Position numbers and translations under genes: made by a program. From the NCBI GenBank assembly GCA_947467605.1, contig CANIII010000014.1, positions 1 to 64,000 of the forward strand: a stretch of 64,000 bases of DNA, read 5' to 3'. The notes under the pieces were generated by a model. The model was not told where the DNA came from. It worked only from the letters and a program-made list of their open reading frames with translations, and ran no database searches. The stretch is from Acidobacteriota bacterium (GTDB lineage Bacteria > Acidobacteriota > Vicinamibacteria > Vicinamibacterales > SCN-69-37). This document shows positions 1-31,929 of this stretch, one piece after another (within the stretch, counting starts at the first letter, position 1; each line of letters starts with the position of its first letter).

Positions 1-1620
1 GCGTGATCGTGATCGTCGCCGCTGCGCTCGTGGCCGCCGTGTAATTACCCGACGCCGCGATGGAGCACGTCACTGTTGAGGAGCCCGCATCAACCGGAGC
101 CGAACCGCCGCTGTAGCTGGCAGTGGCGCCGGAAAGCGACGCACCGTTCAGACCGCTCACCGCGCACGAACCGCCGTGCGCCTGGCCGTCATACGGGAAC
201 GTGCCACCGGTCGCGACAACCGTCGGCGCGATTGGCGTGATCGTGATCGTCGCCGCTGCGCTCGTGGCCGCCGTGTAGTTGCCCGACGCTTCGATCGCAC
301 ACGTCACCGTCGAGGAACCGACGTTGACCGGTGCCGAGCCGCCGCTGTAGCTCGCCGCGGCGCCCGAGAGCGACGCGCCGTTGAGCCCCGTCGCCGCGCA
401 CGAACCGCCGTGCGCCTGACCGTCATACGGGAACATGCCACCGGTCGCCGTCACTGTCGGCGTAATCGGCGTGATCGTGATCGTCGCCGCTGCGCTGGTG
501 GCCGCCGTGTAGTTGCCCGAGGCCTCAATCGAGCATGTCACCGTCGAGGTGCTGACATTGATCGGCGCCGAACCACCGCTGTAGCTCGCTGTCGCGCCGG
601 AGAGCGTCGTCCCACTCAGGCCAGTTGCGGCGCATGAACCCTCGTGCGCCTGACCGTCATACGGGAACGTGCCGCCCGTGGCTACAACCGTCGGCGCGAT
701 CGGCGTAATCGTGATCGTCGCTGGTGCGCTTGTGGCCGCCGTGTAGTTGCCCGAGGCCGCAATTGCGCACGTCACGGTCGAGGAGCTGACATCGACCGGC
801 GCCGATCCACCGCTGTAGCTCGACGTCGCACCCGCAAGCGGCGCCCCATTCAGGCCAGTTGCGACGCACGAACCGCCGTGCGCCTGGCCGTCATACGGGA
901 ACGTGCCACCGGTCGCGACAACCGTCGGCGCGATCGGCGTGATAGTGATCGTCGCTGGCGCGCTCGTTGCCGCCGTGTAGTTGCCCGAGGCCGCGATCGC
1001 ACACGTCGCCGTCGAGGAACCGACGTCCACCGGTGCTGCACCGCCGCTGTAGCTGATCGTTGCAGTCAGCGACTCGTTGTTGACGCCCGTCGCCTCGCAG
1101 GAACCGCCATGCGCCTGCCCGTCATACGGGAACGTGCCACCCGTTGCCGTCACCACCGGTGTTGCCGGCGTGATCACGATCGGCGCCGTGTCGCTGGCGG
1201 CCGTGTAGTTGCCGGCCGCGTCGAGCGAGCAGGTGACTGATGTCGACCCGGCATTTGTCGGAGCCGCGCCACCGCTGTAGCTGATGGCCGCCGTGAGCGA
1301 CTCGTTGTTGACGCCCGCAGCCACGCACGAACCGCCATGCGCCTGGCCGTCATACGGGAACGTTCCGCCGGTCGCCGTCACAACCGGCGTCGCCGGCGTG
1401 ATGACGATCGACGCCGTGTCGCTGGCCGCGAGGTAGCTGTCATCACCTGCGAACGAACACGTCAGCGGGTAGCTGCCGACATTGGTCGGCGGCCCTCCTG
1501 CGGCAAACGCGATCGTGCCGAGCAGCGACGCGCCGCCCGAGCCCGTGACGGTGCACGTGCCGCTAAGAGCCTGGCCGTCATAAACAAACGTCCCACCCGT
1601 CGCTACAGCCGATGAGGTGC
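1..1620 (-). repeat. Tandem 234/231-bp repeats encoding 77-78-residue MBG-like domains
   Basis: The segment coding [12 protein letters not shown] recurs near 177, 411, 645, 879, 1110 and 1341, spaced 234 bp four times near the window edge and 231 bp for the next copies; a divergent copy with [11 protein letters not shown] lies near 1575. Each unit ends with a GNYTAATS-like strand and an ATITITP linker. The first four or five copies are much closer to each other in DNA than the later ones, so the array probably grew recently by unequal exchange. The array continues beyond the left edge. Confidence 0.92.
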
Positions 1621-4600
1621 GCTTCACAACCGTCACCGTCACCGTCGCCGTCGCCGTTCCACCATGACCGTCGCTGATCGTGTAGGTAAACGTGTCGGTG
1701 CCGGTGAAGCCCGCGTTCGGCGAGTAGGTAATGGTGCCGTCCGCGTTAACCGTCACCGCGCCGTTGGCCGGCGTTGTTGTCGACGACACGGTCAGCGTGT
1801 TGTTGTCCGGGTCGCTGTCGTTGCTGAGAACCGTGATCGTCACGGGCATACCCGCGAAGGTCGACGCCGAGTCATTGCCCGCCACCGGCGGCTGGTTGCA
1901 GGACGGATCGTTCGCCGCCAGCACCGTCACCGTGGTGAATTCGCTGTTGGTCGCGTTCTGGTTATCCACGACCTGGAGGCCCAGGTTGTAAGTGCCCGGT
2001 CCGAGCGTGGCAAACGCAGCTGACGCGTCAACTGTCGGCGTGGTGGCGTTAGGTGACGCGAAGTTGATCGTGCCCCAGCTCCAGCGATAGGCCGAGATCG
2101 TGCCGTCCGAGTCAACCGAAGTTGATCCGTTCAGCAGGAGCGGGCTACCCGAGCAGACCGTGTATGGCCCGCCCGCGTTCGCGTTCGGCGGAACGTTGGT
2201 GTCAACGATGGTGACAGGGCACGAGGCGGTGCCGGTGAGACCACGCGTATCGGTGACCGTTAATGTCGCCGCACGCGTCGTCGGATACGTCGCTGGCGCA
2301 CCGTAGTTGTGCGAGGTCGTGGCGCCGCTGCCGTTGGTCGAGTCGCCGAAGTTCCACGAGTACGACACGATCGACTGGGTGGAATCCGGGTGGAAGGATC
2401 CCGAGGCACTGAATGCGACGGTGCCGCCAGCTGTGCCGAGCGTTGCCGGCTCCACCGAGCAGACCGCGCTCGGCGGCAACTCGAAGAGTGACGGCGACAA
2501 CATGATGATCGCCCACGATGTTGACTGATCCTGATTGATCCCAGGCGTGCCCTGCGACTGGCTGAACGAACCGTCACCGTTCTGGTGCGAAGTCAACCAA
2601 TCGTCGTACGCCGCCTGCCAGTCCGTTGTGCCAGCCAGCAGCGTGTTCGGCGACGTGTCGCCCGACGAATCGCGCGCGGTGCGCATCGCCTTGGTGGTCT
2701 GGTACATCGTGTAGAAGTTGCCCATCGAATCGCCGAACGGGCTACCCGGTGCAAAGCGATCATTGAGGAAAGTCTCGGTGCAGGTGTAGCGCGGGTCGGT
2801 CTTCGCCGTGCCGTTCGCGTTCATCAGGATCAACCCGGCCGCAGCAACGTTCGTGCCACCATCCCAGATGTATCCCCTGCTGTCGGTATAGCCGAAGTGG
2901 CAATCGCCCGGATATTCCTGCATCAGCGGAATGCCAACATTGCGCTGCAGATCCTTGACCCATGTGGGTGCATCGAGCCCCCAGCTGTGTGACGCCAGCA
3001 CGCCGATACCCCACCAGTGCGAGGCCGACGTGTCGTTGCTGCCGTTCGTGCCCTGGAAGTAGTAGTACCAGCCGCCCCGGTCATCTGCCATGCCCCACGA
3101 GTAGCCGTCGAGCATGTCCTGGATGATGTCCTTGTAGGTGCGACCGCGGACATACGTCGGGACGCCCGTGACCGCGCGCCGGGTTGGCGTGCCGCTCGCC
3201 ACAATCGCGTCCATGACCTGACCGCTGATGTATGACGTATGGTCGTTCGCTGCGAAGTTCACGCCGAGGCCATAGCCGTTGCCGTTCGCGTCCGGGTTAT
3301 TGCCGTTCTGCATCGTGGCATTGAAGTTTTCCAAATGCCCGTGCTCAGAACTGAGGATGTAGTGCAAGCCGCGCGTGACGTCGTTCACATACGGATCGCG
3401 CGTGCTGTCACCCGACTCACGATGGTTGTTGATCTCGAAGGCCTGGACCGACGACGCCGTATGCGCCATCAGGTAGCTGCCGTAGTAGCCGTTCCAGTAG
3501 CCGGAAATCTCGCCATCGGACGTCGTCAACGTCAGGTTCTTGTGCAGATTCCACAGACCGCGATCGATCGCCATGTTCACGCGCGTCTCGCGTGAATCCG
3601 GGCGAATGACGACGCGGAACGTGTCCGTGAAGACGTTGCCACCCGTATCGACGACACGGACCGTTGCAATGAACGGCTGGTTGTTGTCACCAATATAGGT
3701 GTGCGTCAGTTCCAAATTGCGCGGGTTGCTGAAGTCGATGTTCTGCGGGCCCGAGCCGTCGCCTGGATCCCAGCTAGCCGCCTGAAGCGGTGTTGCCACG
3801 CCAGTGCCGGCATTGGTCGCCACAGCCTGCAGGATCACCGAACCGCCCGAGTACACCTCGTGCGAAAGCGCCTCGCTGCCTAGCCACGGCACCGCAACCA
3901 CGCCATCGGAGCATGCGTTGCCAACGCCGTCGTGGTTCGAGTCGAGCTGATCCGAGTTCGGCGTATCCGGGCAGTTGTCGTTCACGTTCCAGATGCCGTC
4001 ACCGTCGCGATCGTAGTTGTCGCAGGCATCGCCCTTGCCGTTGTGGTCTGTGTCCGCCTGATCGGCGTTCATCGTGAACGGGCAGTTGTCGATCGCGTTC
4101 GCGACGCCGTCGTTGTCGAGATCCGGATCGCTGCAGTCATTGATGCCGTCGTGATCTGTGTCGGCTGGCCCCTTGGCAAACGTGAGCGGATCGGTGTTGC
4201 CACCGTCCGCGTCTAGTGGTCCGTTCGGGCCGTAGCTGTAGCCGTTAAAGAGGTAGCGATCCTGACACGACCCGCCGTTAGCATTGTTGTTCAGCACGTC
4301 GGCGATGCAATAGCTCGTGGTGCCCGACGTCCACGTGTTGACCTTGAGTCGAACAAAGCCGAAGTACTCGTAGACGTTGTCTTTGGTGACCTTGATCAGC
4401 ACGCAGGAGAGATCACCTTGCAGCAGGTTCAGGTACTGGGCCGGGACCTCAAAGGAGAAGTTCGATGAGTAGTAGTTATTGTTATTGCCGACAACGCTGC
4501 CGATCTCGGTATTGCCGATGAACATGTGATAGCGGCCGCTGTAGCTGTAGGCCTCAAACTCAAACCGCGCGCTGCTGACCTCGCACGCGTCGCCATGACC

Positions 4601-5371
4601 GTCGTGGTTAGTGTCGGACTGATCGGCGTTCGACACGCTCGGGCAGTTGTCTGCCGCATTCAAAATGCCGTCGTTGTCAATGTCTGGATCAAAGCAGTTG
4701 TCGATGCCATCGCCGTCAGTATCCGCAGGCGTCTGACCAGAGAGGAATGTGTTGTAGTCCGTGTTACCCGCGTCCGAATCGGTGCCGTTGTAGTAGTAAT
4801 AAGAAGCGCCGTTCCAAATGTACCGGTCCTGACACGTTCCACCATTCGCGCTGCTGCCGCCGAGGAAATCGGCGAGGCACGACGTAGAAGGCGCTGATGC
4901 CCAATGCTCCACTTCAACGCGCGCATAGGCCAGTTGGTCCCAGTAGTAATCGCGCACCACCTTCAGCTGAATGCAGCTGATGTCTGAGCCCTGAAGGAGG
5001 CTGCGATACTGCGCCGGCACATCGAACACGACATTCGGCACGGAACCCGAAACCTGCGTCGCGCGCGCGGAACCAATCTCGGTGTTGCCGATGAAGAAGT
5101 GCAGCAAACCGCTGCCGTAGACGTTCACCATGAACCGCGCGGTCTTCACTTCACACGCGTCACCATGGCCGTCGTTGTTCGAATCCACCTGATCCAGATT
5201 CGCCACATCCGAGCAGTTGTCGACGCCGTTCAGAACGGTGTCGTTGTCGATGTCCGGATCGACGCAGTTGTTCAGACCGTCTCCGTCGGTATCCCCAATC
5301 GCGGGTGTCGAAAAAGTCGGCGAGTAATCAGAGTTGCTGCCGTCGACATACTGCACCCCCCCAATGCGCAA
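1..5371 (-). CDS. Giant secreted repeat protein, 3' end beyond window, 5' end truncated
   Basis: One minus-strand frame stays open from 5371 past the window edge (about 1790 codons; frame checked at about eight points). In order it encodes thrombospondin type-3 calcium-binding units ([18 protein letters not shown] and similar), two related cysteine-containing modules, an alpha/alpha-toroid-like region ([21 protein letters not shown]) resembling squalene-cyclase folds, two PKD-like domains, one cadherin-like domain ([12 protein letters not shown]) and at least seven MBG-like repeats ([12 protein letters not shown]). The content implies an extracellular, calcium-dependent surface or secreted protein. 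The 5' end is odd: a TGA at 5372-5374 precedes a possible TTG at 5371 or GTG at 5356, there is no signal peptide or ribosome binding site, and the frame begins in the middle of a repeat module. It is probably a 5'-truncated gene or lies at a rearrangement or assembly join. The exact function is unknown. Confidence 0.8.
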
Positions 5372-20619: not shown

Positions 20620-20985
20620 CTAGTACGGCACCCGCACGCCAGTGTGGTCCTTCGGAAAATCTTTGGTATTTCGCGTCACGAGCAACGCTGATTCTGCGCG
20701 CGCCGTCGCCCAGATCACCGCGTCCGGCAATTTCATGCGGTGAGTGCGACGAATCTCAACGGCCTCTCGCGCGATGCCGCGAGTGAGTTCGACGACGCGA
20801 AAGTCGCGCATGAACATCTCGATGACGTCAGCCTCTTCGGCGTTGTGCGAACCGGCAAGCATCTCCATCCAGGTGACGATGCTGATCAGGCGCTGGCGAT
20901 AGGACGCCAGTTCCTTCTTCGACGCGTCGTTGCCGTTGAGGTAGTCGATCAGGATGTTCGTGTCGAAGAGCGCGTTCACGACCAC
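20620..20985 (-). CDS. vapC: PIN-domain ribonuclease toxin, VapC family
   Basis: 121 residues, typical of VapC. PIN domains cleave RNA with metal-bound acidic residues: Asp in NALFDTNILIDYLNG, Glu in the VTWMEMLAG helix and Asp in KLPDAVIWATA are in the expected places, followed by LLVTRNTKDF. The start overlaps the end of the upstream antitoxin gene by about ten bases, as expected for a toxin-antitoxin pair. A GTG two codons later is an alternative start. The RNA target cannot be predicted. Confidence 0.9.
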   Translation of the reverse strand: MVVNALFDTNILIDYLNGNDASKKELASYRQRLISIVTWMEMLAGSHNAEEADVIEMFMRDFRVVELTRGIAREAVEIRRTHRMKLPDAVIWATARAESALLVTRNTKDFPKDHTGVRVPY

Positions 20986-21194
20986 TCCGCGCGGAGGCGT
21001 CGCTGATGGGCAACGCCATCCACGGGTTTGGCGCGCCAGAGACCGAAGGCCTGATCGGGCGCGGCCGCACGCTCACGCAGCAACATCTCAGCCACTGCGC
21101 GACGCACGGCTTCGGCCCGCGAAATGCCATCGCGTCGGCAGAGCTCGCTCAGGGCCTCAAGCTGCGTTTCGGGGAGTTCGACGATCGTCCGCAT
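20976..21194 (-). CDS. Ribbon-helix-helix antitoxin, VapB/CopG-like
   Basis: About 72 residues from the ATG at 21194. The start of the protein, MRTIVELPETQLEALSELC, then RDGISRAEAVRRAVAEMLL, is a ribbon-helix-helix DNA-binding fold; the C-terminal part is a charged toxin-binding tail. An ATG at 21215 would add seven residues (MTSYDDV), but these codons are the operator palindromes themselves, so the inner start is preferred. It should neutralise the adjacent PIN toxin and repress its own promoter. Confidence 0.85.
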   Translation of the reverse strand: MRTIVELPETQLEALSELCRRDGISRAEAVRRAVAEMLLRERAAAPDQAFGLWRAKPVDGVAHQRRLRAEWS

Positions 21195-21215
21195 GACGTC
21201 ATCATATGACGTCAT
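21193..21215. promoter_or_regulatory. Tandem palindromic operator at the antitoxin start
   Basis: Two identical perfect 10-bp palindromes, ATGACGTCAT at 21193-21202 and 21206-21215, have centres 13 bases apart. The first contains the antitoxin start codon. Two spaced dyads fit cooperative binding of ribbon-helix-helix dimers, the usual autoregulation of toxin-antitoxin operons. Binding is inferred. Confidence 0.7.
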
Positions 21216-21227
21216 CAGATGCCGCGT

Positions 21228-21725
21228 CTACCCTTTTGCCATCTTCGCGGCAGCCGCCTCGACCTTGTCTTCGAGCTTCTTCTTGTAGTCGACGAGCTTG
21301 GCGGCCATGGCTATATCGCCGAGCGCGATCATCTGCGCCGCGAGCACTCCGGCATTGGTCGCGCCAGGCTTGCCGATCGCGACCGTTGCGACTGGCACTC
21401 CTGGCGGCATCTGGACGGTCGAAAGCAATGCGTCCATGCCCTTCAGCGCCGACGAGTCAATCGGCACGCCGACGACAGGTCGCGTGGTGTGCGCCGCAAC
21501 AACGCCGGCCAAATGCGCGGCAGCGCCGGCGCCGACGATGAACACCTTCACGCCGCGATTGTGCGCATCCAGTATCAAGCGCAGCACGCGCGCGGGGGAA
21601 CGATGGGCGGACGCGACCGTCATTTCCCACGTGAGCCCAAACTCGTTCAACGCATCACCCGCGGCACTCATGATCGGTGCGTCGGAGTCACTGCCCATCA
21701 GAATCAACACATCCAGAGGCGTCAT
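21228..21725 (-). CDS. purE: N5-carboxyaminoimidazole ribonucleotide mutase, PurE
   Basis: 165 residues. It converts N5-CAIR to CAIR in purine synthesis. Signatures are VLILMGSDSDAPIM, VASAHRSPARVL (catalytic His), FIVGAGAAAHLAGVVAAHTTRPVVG and the GMDALLSTVQMPPGVPVATVA region. No purK is seen in the window, so whether it is the class I mutase (with PurK elsewhere) or acts on AIR directly is open. It follows purD by eight bases. Confidence 0.96.
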   Translation of the reverse strand: MTPLDVLILMGSDSDAPIMSAAGDALNEFGLTWEMTVASAHRSPARVLRLILDAHNRGVKVFIVGAGAAAHLAGVVAAHTTRPVVGVPIDSSALKGMDALLSTVQMPPGVPVATVAIGKPGATNAGVLAAQMIALGDIAMAAKLVDYKKKLEDKVEAAAAKMAKG

Positions 21726-21733
21726 CGTCGGTC

Positions 21734-23017
21734 CTATTGTCCAGTGAGGGCCTTGCGGCCGATGTCTTTGCGAAATTCCATTCGATCATACGAAACACGC
21801 GCAACGCCGGCATAGGCGCGCGACATCGCGTCGGCGTAGGACGCGCCGCGACCGACGACGGTCAACACGCGGCCACCAGACGTGACGATGCGACCGCCAT
21901 CCGTCGTCGTCCCTGCGTGAAAGACCACGACGCCGTCGAGCGCATTGGCCGCATCGATGCCATCGATCCCCTTGCCCATCTGCATCGGGCCGGGATAGCC
22001 ACCCGACGCCATAACGACGCCGACGAACTTGTCCGAGGAGAGTGTGAGCGCGGGCGCCTGATCGAGCATGCCATTCGCGCAGGCGAGGAGCGCCGTCGCA
22101 AACTCGCCCTCAATCGCCGGCAGCAGTACCTGCGCCTCCGGATCGCCGAAGCGCACGTTGAACTCGATCACCTGCGGCCCGGTCGGCGTGAGCATCAGCG
22201 AGATGTAGAGAAAGCCGCGATAGTCTCCTGCCCCATCCGCCTTCACGCCGTCGATGACGCGTTGCGCGATGTCGCGCATTGCCATCTCCTGCAACGCGGG
22301 CGTCATCAACGGGCTCGGCGCAAATGCGCCCATCCCCCCCGTGTTCGGTCCCCTGTCATCGTCGTACGCGCGCTTGTGATCCTGCGCGCTGCCGAGGGGA
22401 ATCGCGCGCGTGCCGTCGCAGAGCGCGAAGAACGAGACCTCAGGTCCGGTCAGACACTGTTCAATGACGACGGTTGAGCCCGCCGCGCCGAATGCACCGT
22501 CGAAACACGCGAGGACGGCCGCCTCGGCTTCAGCGCGATCCTGCGCCACGACGACGCCCTTGCCGCCGGCGAGTCCATCGGCTTTCACGACGACGGGGAA
22601 TCCGAAGTCGCGTCCCGACACGGCATCGAGCGCGGCCGCGAGTTCTTTGTGCACGACGAAGCGCGCTGTTGGTATCCCGTGCCGCTCCATAAAGGCTTTT
22701 GAGAACACCTTGGAGCATTCGAGTTGCGCCGGAATCTTGCCTGGCCCCACAACCGGGTGTCCTTCAGCCCTGAGTGCGTCTGCGACCCCGGCGTCGAGCG
22801 GAGCTTCGGGCCCAACCACGGTTAGGTCGATTGCCTGTTCTCTCACCAGGCTCAGAACGGCGGATGCATTACTAATAGATAGAGGATGGCACCGTCCGAT
22901 TCCGGACATACCCGGATTTCCGGGTGCGCAAATTACATTTTTGACATTTCTGTCCCTGGTTAGCCGCCAGGCCAGGGCGTGTTCCCGACCGCCAGATCCG
23001 AGAATAAGAACTCGCAT
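21734..23017 (-). CDS. purD: Phosphoribosylamine--glycine ligase (GAR synthetase)
   Basis: 427 residues. It ligates glycine to phosphoribosylamine with ATP, the second step of purine synthesis. ATP-grasp features are visible: the N-terminal VLILGSGGREHALAWRL, the central VVVKADGLAGGKGVVVA loop, RGPNTGGMGAFAPSP and the metal-binding FNVRFGDPEAQ. It is the first gene of the purD-purE pair and is divergent from rpsU, so a promoter must lie in the roughly 100 bases between 23018 and 23119. Confidence 0.97.
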   Translation of the reverse strand: MRVLILGSGGREHALAWRLTRDRNVKNVICAPGNPGMSGIGRCHPLSISNASAVLSLVREQAIDLTVVGPEAPLDAGVADALRAEGHPVVGPGKIPAQLECSKVFSKAFMERHGIPTARFVVHKELAAALDAVSGRDFGFPVVVKADGLAGGKGVVVAQDRAEAEAAVLACFDGAFGAAGSTVVIEQCLTGPEVSFFALCDGTRAIPLGSAQDHKRAYDDDRGPNTGGMGAFAPSPLMTPALQEMAMRDIAQRVIDGVKADGAGDYRGFLYISLMLTPTGPQVIEFNVRFGDPEAQVLLPAIEGEFATALLACANGMLDQAPALTLSSDKFVGVVMASGGYPGPMQMGKGIDGIDAANALDGVVVFHAGTTTDGGRIVTSGGRVLTVVGRGASYADAMSRAYAGVARVSYDRMEFRKDIGRKALTGQ

Positions 23018-23064
23018 GAGTCGTCCATTCTGGCCAGTTTCCTGCGTGATACGCTAGAAGTTTC

Positions 23065-23088
23065 CCGGGGCTCCTTTGGGCGCCCCGG
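23065..23088. promoter_or_regulatory. GC-rich inverted repeat in the rpsU leader
   Basis: Seven-base arms CCGGGGC (23065-23071) and GCCCCGG (23082-23088) lie about 30 bases upstream of the rpsU start, between the divergent purD and rpsU genes. In rpsU mRNA this would be a stable hairpin before the ribosome binding site; it might control S21 translation or be an operator. Function is inferred. Confidence 0.45.
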
Positions 23089-23119
23089 AGCATCTCGACC
23101 GGGAAGGGGGTGTATTGCC

Positions 23120-23317
23120 TTGGCAGAAGTAAAGATTCAGGAAGGTGAGTCCATTGAAAGCGCGCTTCGCCGTTTCAAACGGAAAGTGCAGCAGGAAGAC
23201 ATCATCAAGGACATCAAGAAACATTCCTTTTATCTGAAGCCGGGCGACAAGCGACGAGCGAAACAAGCGCTCGCGCGGAAACGCTCCCGGAAGAAGCAGA
23301 GACGGGATCCGGAATAA
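23120..23317 (+). CDS. rpsU: 30S ribosomal protein S21
   Basis: 65 residues from a TTG start; AAGGGGG at 23104-23110 is a strong ribosome binding site about nine bases upstream and decides the start. The sequence AEVKIQEGESIESALRRFKR and the basic C-terminal tail (ARKRSRKKQRRDPE) are typical of S21, which helps the 30S subunit recognise mRNA during initiation. A longer frame reaching back into purD antisense is not used. Confidence 0.96.
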   Translation: MAEVKIQEGESIESALRRFKRKVQQEDIIKDIKKHSFYLKPGDKRRAKQALARKRSRKKQRRDPE

Positions 23318-23348
23318 AGCAAGTTGGAAGTCGAAAGTTGAAAGTGAC

Positions 23349-23379
23349 AGGGGCGGGCTGAAAAGCCCGCTCCTTTTTT
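23349..23379 (+). terminator. Rho-independent terminator after rpsU
   Basis: An 11-bp stem (AGGGGCGGGCT / AGCCCGCTCCT, one mismatch) with a short GAAA loop is followed by six T residues. It follows rpsU and touches the convergent flhA stop codon, so it may also slow transcription from that side. Confidence 0.85.
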
Positions 23380-25384
23380 ATGTACGGGGGAGATACCGTG
23401 CGGCGTCGCGCGCGGGGATCACAATCGTGATTGTCGCGCCGCGACTCGCCGGCTGCGAGACGGTCAGCGCGCCGCCACTCTGTTGCACGATGCCGTAGGC
23501 AGTCGTCAGCGCGAGTCCGGCGCCGCGGCTCGGCTTCTTCCCGGTGAAGATCGGCTCAGTGGAGCGCGGCGCTGTCGCCACCGCGGTGTCGGACGCGCGC
23601 AAGACGACATCCGCCTGATGCCCGTGGCGCTCCACGGTCGTGGCAAACGTGAGGCGCCCGCCTTGCGGCATCACCTCGCGCGCATGCACAGCAATCGACC
23701 GCAGCACGCGCTCGTACTGCACGGCATCCACTTCCACCAGCGGCAACTCCAGCGCGAGATCGAACCGCACATCAATCTGCTCCCCCACAATCTGGCAGAC
23801 CGTCTCGGACATGTTGCGCACAAGAATATTGACGTCGACCGGTGAGGGCTTCAGTGACTGGCGTTGGCTGATCGCGAGCAGGTCACCGGCGACGCGCGCG
23901 CCCGACTCGGCGGCGTTCGACAGGTGCGTCGACAGTGCAGTGGTCGGATCAACGACGGTGAAGCCGGCACGGAGTGCGGCGTCGCGCTGATCGGTGCCAA
24001 TCCACAGTGCGGGCAGGCCGAACGCGGGTTCCTTGGTCGGCGTGCCTTCGAGCTGCACGTTCGCGCCACCGGCCGTGCCGGGGTTCACGGCGAGTAGCCG
24101 ATCGGTAAAGAGTTCGCCGCGCGCGACTTCCACGCCTCGCACGAGCAGACCGTAGGTGCGTGGTCCGCGCTGCAAGTTGTCGGTGACACGCACGGACGGC
24201 ACGACCAGGCCCGTTTCACCCGCGATCTGGCGACGGATCGCGCGCACGCGATTGAGCAACGTGCCGCCCTGCTTTTCATCGACAAGGCTGACGAGCGCGT
24301 AGCCGACTTCCACGCTGAGTGGATCCACCGAGACCACGGACTCGATCGCATCCGGCGATGGCACAGCGGCTTCTTCGGTCGCGGTGCCATCCGTGGACGT
24401 CGACGGCGCATCAACCGCATGTCGGTTGGAGTAGGCGGCAATCGCCAGAATGGCGGAGACCACGAAGAACGGCAGCTTCGGCAAACCCGGGATGCAGCCG
24501 AGGCCGAACAGCACGCCTGCGGCAACCGCCAGCGGGCGCGAACGGGCAAACAACTGGGTGGCGACTTCTTCGCCGAGGTGCGATTCCGACGCGGCGCGCG
24601 TGGTGATCAAGGCGCCCGACATCGACACGAGCAGGGCCGGAATCGATGTGACCAAACCTTCACCGACCGTCAGCAGAGTGTAGGTTTCGGCCGCCGCGCC
24701 GATTTCCATTCCATGCTGGACGACGCCAATGATCAGGCCGGCCACGATGTTGACGGCCGTGATCAGGATCGCCGCCATGGCATCACGCTGTGTAAACCGA
24801 ATGGCGCCGTCCATCGCGCCGTAGAAGTCGGCCTCACGACGCACGCGCTCACGCCGCGTCCGCGCCTGTTTCTCATCTATGACGCCGGCGTTCAGGTCGG
24901 CATCGATCGCCATCTGGCGGCCGGGCATGGCGTCGAGGGTGAATCGCGCCGTCACTTCCGAGATGCGCACCGCGCCGTGGTTGATCACGAGGAACTGAAT
25001 CGCGATCAACACGAGGAAGACCACGACGCCGACGACAAAGTTGCCGCCGACGACGAATTCACCAAACGCGTTGATCACCGACCCTGCCGCATCTACACCT
25101 TCCGCCCCATGCATCAGGATGAGGCGCGTGGACGCGACGTTGAGCGAGAGCCGGATCAACGTGAGGAGCAGGAGCAGGGACGGGAAGACTGAGAATTCCA
25201 CCGGCTGCTTGACGTAGATCGCCGTCAGCATCAGTGTGACGGCCAGCCCGATATCGACCGAGAGCAGCAGGTCGAGGAGGAGCGGCGGCAGCGGGACGAT
25301 CATCAGCAACACCACGGACATCGCGGCGGCTGGCGCCAGCAGATGGCTGATGTTTCGTCCGGGCATTCGGTTCGCTGTCGGCAT
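23378..25384 (-). CDS. flhA: FlhA-type flagellar export protein fused to a degenerate histidine-kinase ATPase domain
   Basis: 668 residues from the ATG at 25384 (an upstream in-frame start at 25450 adds 22 residues). The first half is clear FlhA: eight likely membrane helices and the FHIPEP region (RFTLDAMPGRQMAIDADLNAG, READFYGAMDGAIRF). The cytoplasmic part proceeds through SVDPLSVEVGYALVSLVD to DPTTALSTHLSNAAESG, where a normal FlhA would go on to the subdomains that dock chaperone-substrate complexes. Instead the last ~165 residues read LLAISQRQSLKPSPVDVN, then VLRSIAVHAREVMPQGGRLTF and GAGLALTTAYGIVQQSGGAL: an NtrB-type kinase ATPase domain. The N-box Asn is His and the G1 box reads DTAVA, so ATP binding is doubtful, and no phospho-acceptor His is present. 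The frame is uninterrupted. It is separated from flhB by two opposite-strand genes. Confidence 0.88.
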   Translation of the reverse strand: MPTANRMPGRNISHLLAPAAAMSVVLLMIVPLPPLLLDLLLSVDIGLAVTLMLTAIYVKQPVEFSVFPSLLLLLTLIRLSLNVASTRLILMHGAEGVDAAGSVINAFGEFVVGGNFVVGVVVFLVLIAIQFLVINHGAVRISEVTARFTLDAMPGRQMAIDADLNAGVIDEKQARTRRERVRREADFYGAMDGAIRFTQRDAMAAILITAVNIVAGLIIGVVQHGMEIGAAAETYTLLTVGEGLVTSIPALLVSMSGALITTRAASESHLGEEVATQLFARSRPLAVAAGVLFGLGCIPGLPKLPFFVVSAILAIAAYSNRHAVDAPSTSTDGTATEEAAVPSPDAIESVVSVDPLSVEVGYALVSLVDEKQGGTLLNRVRAIRRQIAGETGLVVPSVRVTDNLQRGPRTYGLLVRGVEVARGELFTDRLLAVNPGTAGGANVQLEGTPTKEPAFGLPALWIGTDQRDAALRAGFTVVDPTTALSTHLSNAAESGARVAGDLLAISQRQSLKPSPVDVNILVRNMSETVCQIVGEQIDVRFDLALELPLVEVDAVQYERVLRSIAVHAREVMPQGGRLTFATTVERHGHQADVVLRASDTAVATAPRSTEPIFTGKKPSRGAGLALTTAYGIVQQSGGALTVSQPASRGATITIVIPARDAARYLPRT

Positions 25385-25505
25385 TGGCTCTGTCTGTGAC
25401 GGTCCACCGACATCCCAGAGGCGTCTTCCCCTAGGAGCGATGTCCGGCAACAGTGACTAGAGCAAGGGGGGTGCCAACAGTTCGAGGTCCACAGTCCCGG
25501 GCCTG

Positions 25506-25529
25506 ATATATTCGTTCACGCGAATATAT
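25506..25529. promoter_or_regulatory. AT-rich palindrome overlapping the MIP channel start codon
   Basis: Nine-base arms ATATATTCG and CGAATATAT are separated by TTCACG, and the second arm contains the ATG at 25528. The shape resembles operators of ArsR-type metal(loid) repressors, and arsenic-linked MIP channels are often ArsR-controlled; no arsR gene is in the window. The transcript may be nearly leaderless. The regulator is inferred only. Confidence 0.5.
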
Positions 25530-26196
25530 GGACACACGCGCAGGCACAATTCGAGCGGTTGCGGCAGAGGGGCTGGGCACGGCCGGACTCCTCGCGGCGG
25601 TGGTCGGGTCCGGCATCATGGGGGCTCGGTTGTCGGGCGGCAACGTCGCGATCGCGCTTCTCGCCAACAGTCTCGCCACCGGCGGCGCGCTCGTCGTCCT
25701 GATCGCGACGCTGGCGCCACTCTCGGGCGCCCACTTCAACCCGGCCGTCACCGCCGTACAGGCCTGGTGCGGGCAACTGCGCTGGCCCGTGGCCTTCGCC
25801 TACGTCGCCGCGCAGATCCTCGGCGGCATCGCGGGCGTCGTCATCGCCCACGCGATGTTCGGTGAACCGCTGCTCGCCCTGTCGCATCACGCGCGGGCGG
25901 GCGCTGCCCAGATGTTCAGCGAAGGGGTCGCGACCTTCGGATTGCTGCTCCTGATTCTTGGGAGCGAGCGCCGCCCCGCTGAAGCCGTTGGCGCGTTTGT
26001 GGGTCTCTACATCATGGCGGCCTACTGGTTCACGTCGTCGACGTCGTTCGCCAATCCCGCCGCTACATTCGCCCGGGCGCTCACCGACACCTTCACCGGC
26101 ATCTCGCCGGCCAGCATTCCCGGCTTCCTCTTCGGCCAGGCCGCCGGCGGCATCGGCGCGGTCCTCGTCAGCGGCTGGCTGTGGCCTCGTAAGTAG
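25528..26196 (+). CDS. MIP/aquaporin-family channel
   Basis: 222 residues with about six membrane helices. Both NPA boxes are present: HFNPAVTA after the second helix and SFANPAATFAR near the end, the latter with the conserved Arg of the selectivity filter. Length and motifs match bacterial MIP channels of the type found near arsenic genes, which pass water, small polyols or metalloids; the substrate cannot be read. The gene lies on the opposite strand to the flagellar genes, between flhA and flhB, with an operator-like palindrome at its start. Confidence 0.88.
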   Translation: MDTRAGTIRAVAAEGLGTAGLLAAVVGSGIMGARLSGGNVAIALLANSLATGGALVVLIATLAPLSGAHFNPAVTAVQAWCGQLRWPVAFAYVAAQILGGIAGVVIAHAMFGEPLLALSHHARAGAAQMFSEGVATFGLLLLILGSERRPAEAVGAFVGLYIMAAYWFTSSTSFANPAATFARALTDTFTGISPASIPGFLFGQAAGGIGAVLVSGWLWPRK

Positions 26197-26262
26197 CTTT
26201 TTCAGACAACCTTCAGGTGGCGGTGCTCCAATCAGCCACACGTCGCTCCGGAGGTGACCTTC

Positions 26263-27465
26263 ATGACACACCGCATTCATCGTTTGGCATTCATCGCAGT
26301 GTTGGCCGCAACATACGGCGCGGCCGCCGGTTCGGCACAGAACGCCGCAACGGGCCCTTACAAAGTGCTCCAAACCGCGCGCGTCGGCGGCGAAGGCGGC
26401 ACCGACTACATCTTTGCGGACACGGCCGGACGCCGGCTCTACATCACGCGCGGCGCGGCAGCAGCCCGCGCTGCGACGGACACGACGCCCGCAGTCCCTG
26501 CGGCTGAGAAGCGCGTCACGATCTTCGATCTCGACACGCTCAAACCGCTTGGCGAAATTGCCGGCGTCGGCGGCAACGGCGCCGTCGTGTGCGGATCGGC
26601 CGGGCACGGATTCACGAGTGACCATCCAGCACCCGCGATGTTCGACGCGAAGGCGATGAAGTTCATCAAGAACATCGACCTGCCCGCGCCGGCTGCGGCA
26701 GGCGATGCGGTCTTTAGTGCGGATGGCATCTACTGCGACCCGTTCAATGACCGCGTCTACATCGGCAGCCATCCGACCAAAAGCCTGCTGGTGGTCGACG
26801 CCAAGGACGGCGCGGTCCTGGGGCACATCGCGCTCGGCGGTACGCCGGAACAGACGATTGGCGACGGCAAGGGCATGATCTATCAGGTGTTGCAGGAGCG
26901 GCCCGGTGGCGTGGCCGTGATTGACGCGAAGACCATGAAGCTGACGGCGACCTATCCGTTCGGCGACAACGGCGCGTGCAATGGCCTCGCGCTCGATGCC
27001 AAGAACAACATTCTGTTCGCGGCCTGCGGCGCCGTTGGTGCCGCACCCGCGCGGGGCACGCCAGGCCAGCCGGCAGCACCGGCACCGACACCGGATCCCA
27101 ACGCCAAACCACCGCAGGCGATGGTGATCCTGAATGCGAAGGACGGCAAGATTCTGACGCGCCTCCCTCTCGCGGGCAGCTCCGATGGCGCCACGTTCAA
27201 CGCGTCCACGATGGAGGCGTTCAGCACGCAGGGCAACGGCACGCTGACGATCATCAAAGAGACCAGCGCGACGACCTTTGAAGTGCTGCAGAACCTGCCG
27301 ACGATGGCGGGTGCCAAGTGCATCGCGATCGACACGAAGACCGGCCACATCTTCACGATGGCGGCCGAGCGTGGCCCCGCGCCGCCGCCACCCGCCGGTG
27401 GCGGCCGTGGCGGACAGGCTCCCCTGATCCCAGGCTCCTTCTCGATCCTCATGATCGGTAAGTAG
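26263..27465 (+). CDS. Secreted YncE-like beta-propeller protein
   Basis: 400 residues. A strong ribosome binding site (GGAGGTG at 26250-26256) selects the ATG at 26263. The N-terminus RLAFIAVLAATYGAAAGSAQ is a signal peptide. The body has repeated blade-like segments (IFDLDTLKPLGEIAGVGGNG, LLVVDAKDGAVLGHIALGG, AVIDAKTMKLTATYPFGDNG) as in the YVTN/YncE propeller family, with a Pro/Ala-rich insert (GQPAAPAPTPDPNAKPPQ) and a Pro/Gly-rich segment near the C-terminus. It probably acts in the periplasm or outside; binding partner unknown. It follows the MIP gene by about 65 bases and ends at a strong terminator. Confidence 0.85.
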   Translation: MTHRIHRLAFIAVLAATYGAAAGSAQNAATGPYKVLQTARVGGEGGTDYIFADTAGRRLYITRGAAAARAATDTTPAVPAAEKRVTIFDLDTLKPLGEIAGVGGNGAVVCGSAGHGFTSDHPAPAMFDAKAMKFIKNIDLPAPAAAGDAVFSADGIYCDPFNDRVYIGSHPTKSLLVVDAKDGAVLGHIALGGTPEQTIGDGKGMIYQVLQERPGGVAVIDAKTMKLTATYPFGDNGACNGLALDAKNNILFAACGAVGAAPARGTPGQPAAPAPTPDPNAKPPQAMVILNAKDGKILTRLPLAGSSDGATFNASTMEAFSTQGNGTLTIIKETSATTFEVLQNLPTMAGAKCIAIDTKTGHIFTMAAERGPAPPPPAGGGRGGQAPLIPGSFSILMIGK

Positions 27466-27511
27466 TTTATGGAGCGGCCGGGCTTCAGCCGGCCGGTGCG
27501 AAACGGTAAGA

Positions 27512-27562
27512 AACATCGGGAGTTAATTGGGAAAACCTTCCCAATTAACTCCCGATGTTTTT
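27512..27562. terminator. Bidirectional terminator with perfect 22-bp arms
   Basis: A 48-base perfect inverted repeat (27512-27559): 22-base arms beginning AACATCGGGAGTTAATT, with an AACC loop, then T residues on the plus strand (GTTTTT). It lies between the convergent propeller gene and flhB and is much more AT-rich than its surroundings. Confidence 0.85.
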
Positions 27563-28627
27563 CTACATGACCAGCTGTTTGATGCGGATGAGGTAGGCCA
27601 GGACTTCGGCCACGGCGCCGAAGAGGTCTGGTGGGATAAAGTCACCGACTTCGGCATTGGCGTGGAGTGCGCGCGCGAGGGGTGGGTTTTCCATGATCGG
27701 CACGTTGTGCTCACGTGCCGCGGCGCGGATCTTGAGCGCCATGGCGTCGGCACCTTTCGCGACGACGCGCGGCGCGGCCATTTCACCACGGCGATACTCA
27801 AGCGCCACGGCGTAGTGCGTCGGGTTGGTGATCACGACAGACGCCGTCTTCACTGACGCGAGCATGCGCCGGCGAGACATCTCGAATTGGACGCGGCGCA
27901 CGCGGTTCTTGATTTCCGGATTGCCTTCCATCAATTTCGATTCGTCTTTCACTTCTTGCTTCGTCATCTTCAACTGGCTCATCAGCTTGTAGCGCTGCAT
28001 GCCGTAGTCGAGGATGCCGAGGGTCGCCATCGCGATACCCGAGCGCCACAGAAACTTCCAGACATGGTCCCACGCCGTCGCGGCCGACTGCCCCGGCGCC
28101 ATGCCGGCCAACAGGCGCGCATCGACCACAAGATCTGCTACGGCCCGATAGCCGATGCACGCGATCACCGTCACGGCAATCGTCGCGCGAATCAGCTCGA
28201 ACCCGGCTTGACTCCAGCCGAGCCGCTTGATCCCGTTCGATGGTGAGAGCCGATCAAACTTGATGGCGAGTGCATCTTTGGCGAAGACCAGACCGTGCTG
28301 CGAGACCTGCGCGAACACCGCGACGCCAGCCGCCGTGAGCGCGAGCGGACCAACCACGAGCGCGAACGTTGCGCCATCGGCCCAGACAAGCGACGCCATC
28401 GTGTCGGCGGCCATGTCTGCCTTGGCGTTGTCGCCGACGAATCGCAGCCCTTGTGCCAGTCGCTCCGTCAGCGTGTGCAGCATGCGCGGTCCGAGCCAGC
28501 CCATGGCGATCGTGCCGGCCACCAGTGCCGCTGACGACGCCAGATCGCGACTGCGCGCGACTTGGCCGCGCTCTTTCGCCTCCTTGATGCGTTTTGGGGA
28601 AGGTTTCTCTGTCTTGTCGCTCGACAT
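27563..28627 (-). CDS. flhB: Flagellar type III export switch protein FlhB
   Basis: 354 residues. FlhB sits in the export gate and switches substrate specificity after self-cleavage. The N-terminal SDKTEKPSPKRIKEAKERGQVARSRDL leader, four membrane helices and the linker before the autocleavage site are present; the cleavage motif is NPTHYAVAL (cut between Asn and Pro). It follows fliR after six bases. Downstream, the usual flhA partner is displaced by a terminator and two inserted plus-strand genes. Confidence 0.96.
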   Translation of the reverse strand: MSSDKTEKPSPKRIKEAKERGQVARSRDLASSAALVAGTIAMGWLGPRMLHTLTERLAQGLRFVGDNAKADMAADTMASLVWADGATFALVVGPLALTAAGVAVFAQVSQHGLVFAKDALAIKFDRLSPSNGIKRLGWSQAGFELIRATIAVTVIACIGYRAVADLVVDARLLAGMAPGQSAATAWDHVWKFLWRSGIAMATLGILDYGMQRYKLMSQLKMTKQEVKDESKLMEGNPEIKNRVRRVQFEMSRRRMLASVKTASVVITNPTHYAVALEYRRGEMAAPRVVAKGADAMALKIRAAAREHNVPIMENPPLARALHANAEVGDFIPPDLFGAVAEVLAYLIRIKQLVM

Positions 28628-28633
28628 GGCGGG

Positions 28634-29386
28634 CTACTTGAACGCTCTCGCCGTTTCCATCGCGAGCTGCAGTGCGGCCGGCACCATGTGCGTGAGCAGA
28701 TTCGGCAGCGTCGCCGTGGTGATCGCGACGAGCAGCAACCCAATCGGCACGCGCAACGGCGCACCGAGCGTCATGATGTTGAGCGACGGCGCCACCTTCG
28801 TCATCAGGCCGAGCACGACTTCCACGAGCAGCATCACGACGAGCATCGGCGCAGCGAGCCGCATGCCAAAGACAAACACGAAGCCGAGCATGTGGGAGAC
28901 CGAACCCGCGACACCTGACGCGACGCCACCGATCCCCATCGGTACGCTCTGATATGACGCGACGAGCGCGCGCAGAAACACATGGTGCGCGTTGGTCACG
29001 AAGCAAATGATGATCGTCAGGTTCGTGTAGATCGCGGCAATCTGCGTGTTGCGCACGCCGCTCACCGGATCGATCATGGCGCCGGCCGACATGCCGCTCT
29101 GGTAGCTGCCGAGCTCACCGGCGAACTCCGCCACCGCTGTCAGCAAGCGAATCGCCAGGCCCAGCGACAATCCAATCGCGCCTTCACGACCCAACATCAC
29201 GGCGAGGCCCGCCGGCGAATGCACGTCTGGCAGCGGGACGAGCGGCGCCAGGGTGAACGCAATCAACAGCGACAGCCCCGCGCGCACCTGCGGCGGGGCA
29301 AACACCGCGCCGAAGAAGGGCGCCGTCAACATCATGAGTCCCGGCCGGACCAGGAGCAGTCCGAACTGGATCATCGTGTCGTTCAT
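28634..29386 (-). CDS. fliR: Flagellar export gate protein FliR
   Basis: 250 residues with six hydrophobic segments, the normal FliR length. It forms the export gate together with FliP and FliQ. Family features are the FxLxxxRxxxM start (IQFGLLLVRPGLMMLTAPFFG) and the central ELGSYQSGMSAGAMIDPVSG region. The start overlaps fliQ by four bases. Confidence 0.95.
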   Translation of the reverse strand: MNDTMIQFGLLLVRPGLMMLTAPFFGAVFAPPQVRAGLSLLIAFTLAPLVPLPDVHSPAGLAVMLGREGAIGLSLGLAIRLLTAVAEFAGELGSYQSGMSAGAMIDPVSGVRNTQIAAIYTNLTIIICFVTNAHHVFLRALVASYQSVPMGIGGVASGVAGSVSHMLGFVFVFGMRLAAPMLVVMLLVEVVLGLMTKVAPSLNIMTLGAPLRVPIGLLLVAITTATLPNLLTHMVPAALQLAMETARAFK

Positions 29387-29652
29387 TTTGCGAGTTCCGG
29401 CAACCGCCGAATCAACATGATCGCGAAGCTACTCATCTGCCGCAGCATCCACGGGAACGTCAGCGTGAACACCGCGAAGATCGCGGCCGCGCGCGGGATG
29501 AACGCGAGGACGTTGTCCTGAATCGACGTCACCGTCTGAAAGATGCTGACCAGCACGCCGGCCACCAGCCCGGCGAGCAGCAACGGCAGCGTGACCATGA
29601 CCGCCATCTCGACGGCCTGACGCATGATTCCAATGGCAACGGCTTCAGACAT
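29383..29652 (-). CDS. fliQ: Flagellar export gate protein FliQ
   Basis: 89 residues from the ATG at 29652. Two membrane helices with the signature EAVAIGIMRQAVEMAVMV and GLVAGVLVSIFQTVTSIQD, then TFPWMLRQM, are typical of FliQ. The start lies two bases after the fliP stop. A longer upstream frame reads antisense through the truncated peptidase and is not used. Confidence 0.95.
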   Translation of the reverse strand: MSEAVAIGIMRQAVEMAVMVTLPLLLAGLVAGVLVSIFQTVTSIQDNVLAFIPRAAAIFAVFTLTFPWMLRQMSSFAIMLIRRLPELAK

Positions 29653-29654
29653 GG

Positions 29655-29729
29655 CTAGAGAAAACTCCTCACAAGCGAACTGACCAGCAGGTTCCATCCG
29701 TCGATCATGACGAACAGCAGAATCGGCAA
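29655..29729 (-). pseudogene. fliP: 3' remnant of fliP (flagellar export gate protein)
   Basis: Minus-strand reading gives ILLFVMIDGWNLLVSSLVRS followed by FL and a TAG, which is the conserved C-terminal helix of FliP (LPFKLxLFVLVDGW in relatives). In the same frame a TGA occurs at once upstream (29730-29732), and nothing beyond resembles FliP. Only about 22-24 of roughly 250 codons remain. The break is shared with the start of the M28 peptidase gene on the other strand. Confidence 0.85.
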
Positions 29730-30981
29730 TCAGTATTGGGGCCGCATTGCGGGCACTCCCTACGATCGGATGGCGGCCGAATGGGTGATGGCGCAGTTCA
29801 AACGCGTTGGACTCGAACAAGTTCATATGCAGGAATTTGACCTGCCTGAACAGTGGTTCCCAACCTCATGGGACGTCACCGTAAAGGGTTCCGTAACCAC
29901 GGTTCCGATCAAGACCGCATTTCCACTCTACGCATCGGTGGGCACCAAAGGTGGTGAGACCGTATTCCTTGAGCCCGTCTGGGTTGGTACTGGCATGACC
30001 GCCGACTTTATGGGCCGCGATCTCAAGGGCAAGGCGGCCGTCGTGTACGGGTTTCCAAATCCAGGCGGACGGGAGAACTCGGCGATCACATTTCAAGCCA
30101 TTGCCCATGCCCAGGAGGCCGGCGCTGCCGCATTGATCATGGTCCTGGGCATCCCGGGCAATGTGATGAACGAACCTGCTGGTGGCGCAACGACGCCGCC
30201 AGCCACGATGCCGGTGTTCATCATCGGGAATCAGGATGGCACGGCCATTCGCGAAATGATCGAAAAGCACGAGTCGCCCAAGATTCAGGTTCGGCTGACC
30301 GTGGAAATGAAGACCGGCCTCAAGAGCGCGAGCGTCTTCGGCGTCCTGCCTGGCACGGGCGATGAAAACGTTGCACTGATGGCTCACACCGACTGCTTCT
30401 TTGAAGGTGCCATGGACAATGCGTCCGGGATGTCAACCATCATGGCCCTGGCGGAGCATTACGCGAAGGTGCCCAAGGCGCAGCGGAAACGCAGCATGGT
30501 GTTCTTCACAACATCAGCGCACCACTCGCCATCGGGACCAAACGGGGGCACGCAGTGGGTACGGGCCAACATGAAGGCGACGCTGGAAAAAACCGCTGTG
30601 CTCCTGAATGCCGAACACACGGCGCAAGTCGCAACATACTTGGTCGGCGGCACGATGTATGCCTCGAATCTCGTCAGCGCCCGCCGTTGGTTCGTCGGCG
30701 GCAGCGATCAACTCAAGGCGATCGTTGACCGGGTCTTCAAACAGTACGGCATGGCCCTGTACTCCACGCCGGAAACCCGCCCGGGCGGTGAACTCGGATC
30801 ACTCTCTACGATGGCGCCGAGTTTTCACATCATCGATCACACGGTCTACCACACTGACCTCGATACGCTGAAGGCGGTGCCGGCCTACGGCCTTGAGCAG
30901 AGTGCGCGAGCCTTTGCCAAGGTCATCGATGAAGTGAACAAGCTCCCGCTGAGCCAGTTGCGAGTGAACATTCCGCAGTAG
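29707..30981 (+). CDS. M28-family metallopeptidase, N-terminally truncated at a breakpoint
   Basis: 424 residues in the longest frame. From about residue 9 (QYWGRIAGTPYDRMAAEWVM) it resembles M28 peptidases, with a PA-like inserted domain (GRDLKGKAAVVYGFPNPGG) and M28 core pieces (VALMAHTDCFFEGAMDNASG with His and Asp for zinc, then HHSPSGPNGG and HIIDHTVYHTDLDT). The family normally has a signal peptide and 40-60 more residues; here the first seven codons are antisense to the fliP remnant and no export signal is present. The usual Glu-Glu after the DNASG helix is not obvious, so activity is uncertain. Probably an inactive or mislocalised 5'-truncated gene. Confidence 0.75.
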   Translation: MTNSRIGNQYWGRIAGTPYDRMAAEWVMAQFKRVGLEQVHMQEFDLPEQWFPTSWDVTVKGSVTTVPIKTAFPLYASVGTKGGETVFLEPVWVGTGMTADFMGRDLKGKAAVVYGFPNPGGRENSAITFQAIAHAQEAGAAALIMVLGIPGNVMNEPAGGATTPPATMPVFIIGNQDGTAIREMIEKHESPKIQVRLTVEMKTGLKSASVFGVLPGTGDENVALMAHTDCFFEGAMDNASGMSTIMALAEHYAKVPKAQRKRSMVFFTTSAHHSPSGPNGGTQWVRANMKATLEKTAVLLNAEHTAQVATYLVGGTMYASNLVSARRWFVGGSDQLKAIVDRVFKQYGMALYSTPETRPGGELGSLSTMAPSFHIIDHTVYHTDLDTLKAVPAYGLEQSARAFAKVIDEVNKLPLSQLRVNIPQ

Positions 30982-31051: not shown

Positions 31052-31759
31052 TCAATCCTGCGGCAATTCCATCACAAACGTCGCCCCACCATCGTTGCTG
31101 ACGAGCGTCAGCGAGCCACCCGCCCGCTCCGTCAACCACTTCGAGACAAACAGGCCAATGCCCGGACCATCGCCAGGTCCAAACGCATCAAACAAGGTTG
31201 GCAGCACCTCGGCCGAAACGCCGGGACCGGTATCGCGCACCGACAGCTGTACTCGGCCACCAACGACGTCGACCGAGAACACAATCTGTGCATCCGGCCG
31301 GCCCGTCACCACCTTCTCCGCATTCAACATGAGATTGGCGGCGACCCGAACGATATCGGGGCGCGACGCGCGGACCCAGATTTCCGGGGTCGCGGGGTCG
31401 GCCGGCGCCAGTGACACGCGAATGCGCGCCCGGCCAAACGACGACTTCCGCAGGCCAATCACTTCATCGACCAGCGCGCCGAGCTCGAAGCGGCTTGGCG
31501 CCACTGGCGCATCCTGCGCCATCAAGACCAGACCATGAAGCCGCTGCGTGGCACGATCCGAGTGCGTCAGAATCGCCCGTGACCGATCGCGCGACTTCTC
31601 CGGATCCGCCGACGTCTCGGCAAAGAGCTCCGCATGGCCAGTGACGATCTGGAGGGCATTTCGTGTGTCGTGCACAGCGCTGGAGAGCAGGCGGGCGACC
31701 ACGGTCAGTCGATTGATGACGTTCAGCCGCTCGGGCGGCAGGAGTTCACGGTTTTGCAC
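31052..31759 (-). CDS. Small orphan sensor histidine kinase without sensor domain
   Basis: About 235 residues from a GTG at 31759; a longer frame to 31909 has no ribosome binding site and covers the promoter region of the STAS gene. A dimerisation helix with likely acceptor His (AVHDTRNALQIVTGHAELF) is followed by an ATPase domain with N-box NLMLNAEKV, G1 DTGPGVS and G2 GDGPGIGLFVSKWL, all intact. There is no membrane helix or sensor domain, so it should be cytoplasmic and take its signal from a partner. No receiver gene is adjacent; the divergent neighbour is a STAS protein. The exact start is uncertain. Confidence 0.8.
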   Translation of the reverse strand: MQNRELLPPERLNVINRLTVVARLLSSAVHDTRNALQIVTGHAELFAETSADPEKSRDRSRAILTHSDRATQRLHGLVLMAQDAPVAPSRFELGALVDEVIGLRKSSFGRARIRVSLAPADPATPEIWVRASRPDIVRVAANLMLNAEKVVTGRPDAQIVFSVDVVGGRVQLSVRDTGPGVSAEVLPTLFDAFGPGDGPGIGLFVSKWLTERAGGSLTLVSNDGGATFVMELPQD

Positions 31760-31929
31760 GGCGACTGGCTGTACCCTAGCATGGCCCGGTCTGGCCTTGT
31801 GAAAGACAGGCGAAACACCTAGACTAAGGGCAATTTTCCGGGTTTTGGCGATGTGTCGAAATCCGCTTGGCGCCTCCACGGCGCTGTAGCAGTAAGTACT
31901 TACGGACACGAAAGTTAAAGGAGCTTCTG

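Follow-up and report, generated by a model that had tools for sequence, protein, structure and literature searches.

An in-frame flhA-histidine kinase chimera, probably a deletion scar in a decaying flagellar gene cluster

An open frame that begins as the export-gate protein FlhA and ends as the ATPase domain of a histidine kinase could be a maintained fusion or a by-product of the decay of an export locus. We asked which of these better explains such a frame in the window, by which we mean the whole 64,000-nucleotide stretch analysed (positions 1-64,000 of contig CANIII010000014.1, assembly GCA_947467605.1). The genome to which it belongs (G000) is a draft of 32 contigs and is 93.66% complete. 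It was compared with its nearest flagellated relative, a genome of the same genus (G002) whose flagellar genes were named from their sequences and gene order, and the distribution of the fusion was surveyed across the order (162 genomes) and the phylum (396 genomes). Our results indicate that the frame is very probably the scar of a deletion in a decaying flagellar cluster.

The fused frame and its junction

The original prediction described an uninterrupted 668-residue frame at 23378-25384 that passes from FlhA to HATPase. The open reading frame and the Pfam matches agree with this description, except that the frame lies on the minus strand (25384..23378, 668 amino acids and a stop codon). 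The FHIPEP profile matched residues 24-508 (profile positions 1-478 of 657, 640 bits), and the HATPase_c profile matched residues 553-659 with 28 bits, barely above the cut-off of 26.4 bits. The altered motifs that had been read from the frame are present (SIAVHARE at the N-box, with Asn changed to His, SDTAVA and GAGLALTTAYG), and the kinase part indeed starts at the end of a dimerisation helix, since it consists of the end of HisKA followed by HATPase_c.

In alignments, the switch from FlhA to kinase is abrupt and falls at base 23918, after residue 489. When the window was compared with G002 by blastn, 23918-25479 matched one contig (C121) and 20621-23918 matched another (C99), both matches ending at base 23918 (Table 1). 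Up to this base the flhA part has 83.5% nucleotide identity to the G002 flhA (90% amino acid identity over 488 codons), and the kinase part has 71% amino acid identity to residues 82-263, the C-terminal 182 residues, of a 263-residue G002 kinase. No insertion element was seen at the join.

Residues 1-489 are those of an ordinary FlhA (FHIPEP, PF00771), with the membrane half, the linker and D1/D2. The best matches to solved FlhA structures end at residue 490-495 of the fused frame, which corresponds to about 493-496 of a 692-residue FlhA. By the D1-D4 boundaries of Salmonella FlhA, the frame lacks D3 and D4 and is cut short at the end of D1, a loss of about 200 residues of FlhA; these C-terminal residues were found in 78 of 80 FlhA frames of diverse bacteria. 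A scan of genome contigs gave ordinary FlhA relatives only. The cleft of FlhA that binds the chaperones FliT and FliS lies between D1 and D2 (PMC5932034). The statement that the substrate-docking domains had been replaced is thus inexact, as this cleft belongs to the part that is mostly kept.

Table 1. Features of the fused frame and its surroundings in the window
Feature	Position	Strand	Description	Basis
flhA 5' part	23918..25384	-	residues 1-489 (membrane half, FHIPEP region, linker, D1/D2); D3-D4 absent	Pfam FHIPEP and match to G002 flhA
Kinase 3' part	23378..23917	-	G002 kinase residues ~85-263, end of HisKA and HATPase_c, without the H-box part	amino acid identity and blastn collinearity with G002:C99
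Putative deletion junction	23917..23919	.	~1 nt common to both parents	base-exact switch between two G002 contigs
PIN-type gene, purE, purD, rpsU	20621..23317	.	kinase-side flank, order as in G002:C99	
Aquaporin (MIP) and beta-propeller-like genes	25528..27465	+	between flhB and the flhA stub	Pfam MIP
flhB	27563..28627	-	intact frame	Pfam Bac_export_2; collinear with G002:C111
fliR	28634..29386	-	intact frame	Pfam Bac_export_1; collinear with G002:C111
fliQ	29383..29643	-		Pfam Bac_export_3; 85% amino acid identity to G002
fliP remnant	29656..29720	-	last ~21 codons; putative second deletion scar	blastn match to G002:C111 begins at 29720, inside fliP
M28 peptidase gene	29707..30981	+	abuts the fliP remnant, opposite strand	
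Histidine kinase	31052..31909	-	counterpart of the G002:C395 kinase that adjoins the start of the G002 flagellar cluster	

Separate parents in the relative and missing genes in the genome

In G002, the two parents are separate and complete. Its flhA encodes 691 amino acids and is followed on C121 by flhF, fliA, fliM and many more flagellar genes; a complete and separate FlhA in relatives is what the original prediction had named as a sign of an artefact or a pseudogene. The kinase gene (C99, about 2856-3647) follows motA, motB and another kinase gene and faces rpsU, purD and purE, and the window from 20621 to 23918 is collinear with positions 72-3396 of this contig, with 77% identity over the whole match.

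The HisKA domain of the stand-alone G002 kinase, which is a degenerate NtrB-like protein, spans residues 44-105. The His in the N-box is already present in this protein and its glycine motifs are likewise altered, in a manner similar to those of the window copy, so that the motif changes preceded the fusion and did not arise as adaptations to it. The window copy differs in being without residues 1 to about 84, including the H-box region (SHDFNN). In genomes of other genera, the closest kinase has about 40% identity. With its normal H-box, its degenerate N-box and glycine motifs, and its position immediately after motAB and another hybrid kinase, the G002 protein might be the pseudokinase member of a pair that signals to the flagellum.

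Searches of G000 (32 contigs, ~94% complete) gave no match to the C-terminal part of flhA or to FliM, FlgG, FlgI, FliW, MotB and MotA, and none to FliF, FliG, FlgE or flagellin; the search with FliI recovered F1/Rho-type relatives only. The front of the kinase, with the H-box part, had no match elsewhere in the assembly. The export genes left are fliQ, fliR, flhB and the flhA stub. The genome has one FHIPEP gene only, and hence no injectisome relative of FlhA either. FliP is a core channel subunit, and its sole match in G000 (29655-29759) stops abruptly at 29720 at the DNA level. Because fliQ-fliR-flhB and the flhA stub alone remain, neither the export apparatus nor a flagellum can be built. 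Among the features of an export gate, the fused frame thus retains the FHIPEP membrane half, and a full D1-D4, a fliP partner and the genes of the basal body, motor and filament are lacking. Nor does it have those of an active histidine kinase: the phospho-accepting His of HisKA is absent, and the N-box Asn and the G1 and G2 motifs are altered.

Gene order, distribution and the proposed deletion

In three other genomes (G004, G016 and G017), flhA, fliM, flgG, flgI, fliW, motA and motB lie on the same strand, in the order given, over 29-46 kb, and fliR, flhB and flhA are adjacent; flhB and flhA are also adjacent in G008. The two G002 contigs are presumably linked as in other family members. On C121 the flhA break is 18.4 kb away from the contig end, and on C99 the kinase break is 3.5 kb away, which gives about 22 kb plus the gap between the contigs.

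We propose that the ancestor shared with G002 had the order flhA-flhF-flhG-fliA-fliM-...-fliD-...-motA-motB-kinase-kinase'-rpsU-purD, with flhA, motAB and both kinase genes on one strand. A deletion of about 20-30 kb (at least 22 kb, probably ~30 kb) would then have run from flhA after codon 489 into the second, already degenerate kinase gene, using almost no sequence homology. The frame would have been kept by a one-in-three chance, and since both parents are open, the well-kept frame that had been taken as a sign of maintenance is a weak one. Any protein made from the frame would consist of an FlhA stub anchored in the membrane and a kinase tail without catalytic activity; it would lack partners and is probably without function. 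The parents, intact and separate in G002, and the absence from G000 of those genes between them that were searched for are what a deletion scar would leave, and they strongly support the suggestion of a gene fusion during decay of the export locus. Although one deletion is the likely cause, an inversion or translocation could conceivably have made the join instead: no kinase-rpsU-purD block was found behind motB in G004, and the parent loci of G002 are on separate contigs.

A precedent for such a deletion is Xanthomonas fuscans subsp. fuscans 4834-R, in which 33 kb of the flagellar cluster was deleted and some export genes were left (PMC3826837). In that strain an insertion sequence marks the deletion, whereas in G000 two coding sequences are joined in frame. 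The G000 frame would illustrate neatly how, as flagella are lost, a large deletion can create an in-frame chimera resembling a designed domain fusion, and it cautions that openness of the frame and good codon usage do not prove a fusion to be maintained.

The fusion was found in one genome only, G000. The N-terminal part of flhA was present in 44 of the 162 genomes of the order and the C-terminal part in 42 of these; the exceptions were G000 and G050, in which the flhA match runs off the contig end. The same FlhA-HATPase architecture, for which a search of relatives had been suggested, was absent from the 162 genomes of the order and from the 396 of the phylum, where no match spanned the junction, and a literature search for a known FlhA-HATPase fusion brought up no relevant title among those listed. 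Three flhA genes occur in unusually long frames (G103:C102, 1040 codons; G113:C387, 1298; G122:C11, 1017); since the C-terminal part is present in them, they are not the same fusion. No flhA was found in the same-genus genome G001 (82% complete) or in any of the seven genomes of genus g2 (G003, G007 and G009-G013), and flagella seem to have been lost repeatedly in the family of G000.

Upstream of the flhA stub, flhB and flhA are split in both same-genus genomes (25480-27560 in the window; 2914-6495 of C111 and 1-9150 of C121 in G002). The cargo between them differs, with aquaporin and beta-propeller genes in the window and metal-efflux-like genes in G002. Beyond the fliP remnant, the M28 peptidase had no counterpart at E<=1e-30 among the 14 relatives searched, and 31294-31894 matched positions 605-12 of G002:C395 by blastn.

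Age of the join and alternative readings

The dN/dS values against G002 were 0.10 for the flhA part, 0.21 for the kinase part, 0.18 for flhB, 0.17 for fliR and 0.16 for fliQ, with 0.10 for purD and 0.07 for purE as comparison; they span the entire divergence from G002, most of which precedes the deletion if the deletion is recent. That flhB, fliR, fliQ and the flhA stub have unbroken frames and low dN/dS counts against decay, which must therefore be recent. At near-invariant FlhA positions, 4 of 95 were changed in G000 and 4 of 95 in G002, which fits a recent event. Single-gene relative-rate tests for relaxed selection were not significant for any gene. When four genes were pooled, the amino acid changes unique to G000 and to G002 were 61:35 (P = 0.010), 55:31 (P = 0.013) and 51:37 (P = 0.17) with three outgroups, although the pooling was chosen after the single-gene results were known and the excess is small and not significant with one outgroup. 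This modest excess in G000 is what would be expected if constraint was lost recently.

Because the assembly is a draft, incomplete and in 32 contigs, and the junction connects two genes that are separate in G002, an assembler might have joined the middles of normal flhA and kinase loci. Such a misjoin is unlikely: it should have left the remainder of flhA, the block with motAB and the front of the kinase elsewhere in the assembly, and none was found. Moreover, the other end of the remnant is also truncated, within fliP, with its continuation absent too, and parents with almost no common sequence at the join offer no repeat to confuse an assembler.

The reading favoured in the original prediction, a new and maintained export gate regulated by a pseudo-ATPase domain in place of D3-D4, could draw on the open frame without a stop, on the low dN/dS of both parts and on the near-invariant FlhA positions, kept as well as in G002. 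We consider it very improbable, since FliP (beyond its remnant), FliF, FliG, FliI, FliM and flagellin were not found in G000, D3-D4 are lost, a single genome carries the fusion, the kinase motifs were altered before it arose, and dN/dS mostly reflects the divergence that preceded it if it is recent. No more credible is residual use of the stub outside export, as a membrane-anchored regulator: the sequence of the membrane half and linker is undamaged and the kinase tail is still open, but the H-box part is lost, the motifs of the catalytic domain are degenerate, and no conserved partner gene accompanies a frame seen in one genome. That the frame is expressed and has been retained for a new role outside the flagellum, as a pseudo-kinase protein anchored in the membrane, is likewise very improbable; its maintenance would mean that an export-gate protein had been put to a different use.

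Apart from the flagellar remnant, the window contains two very long frames, at 1-5371 (1790 amino acids) and 53177-59218 (2013 amino acids). The first has DxDxDG-like repeats, and both probably encode surface or secreted proteins.
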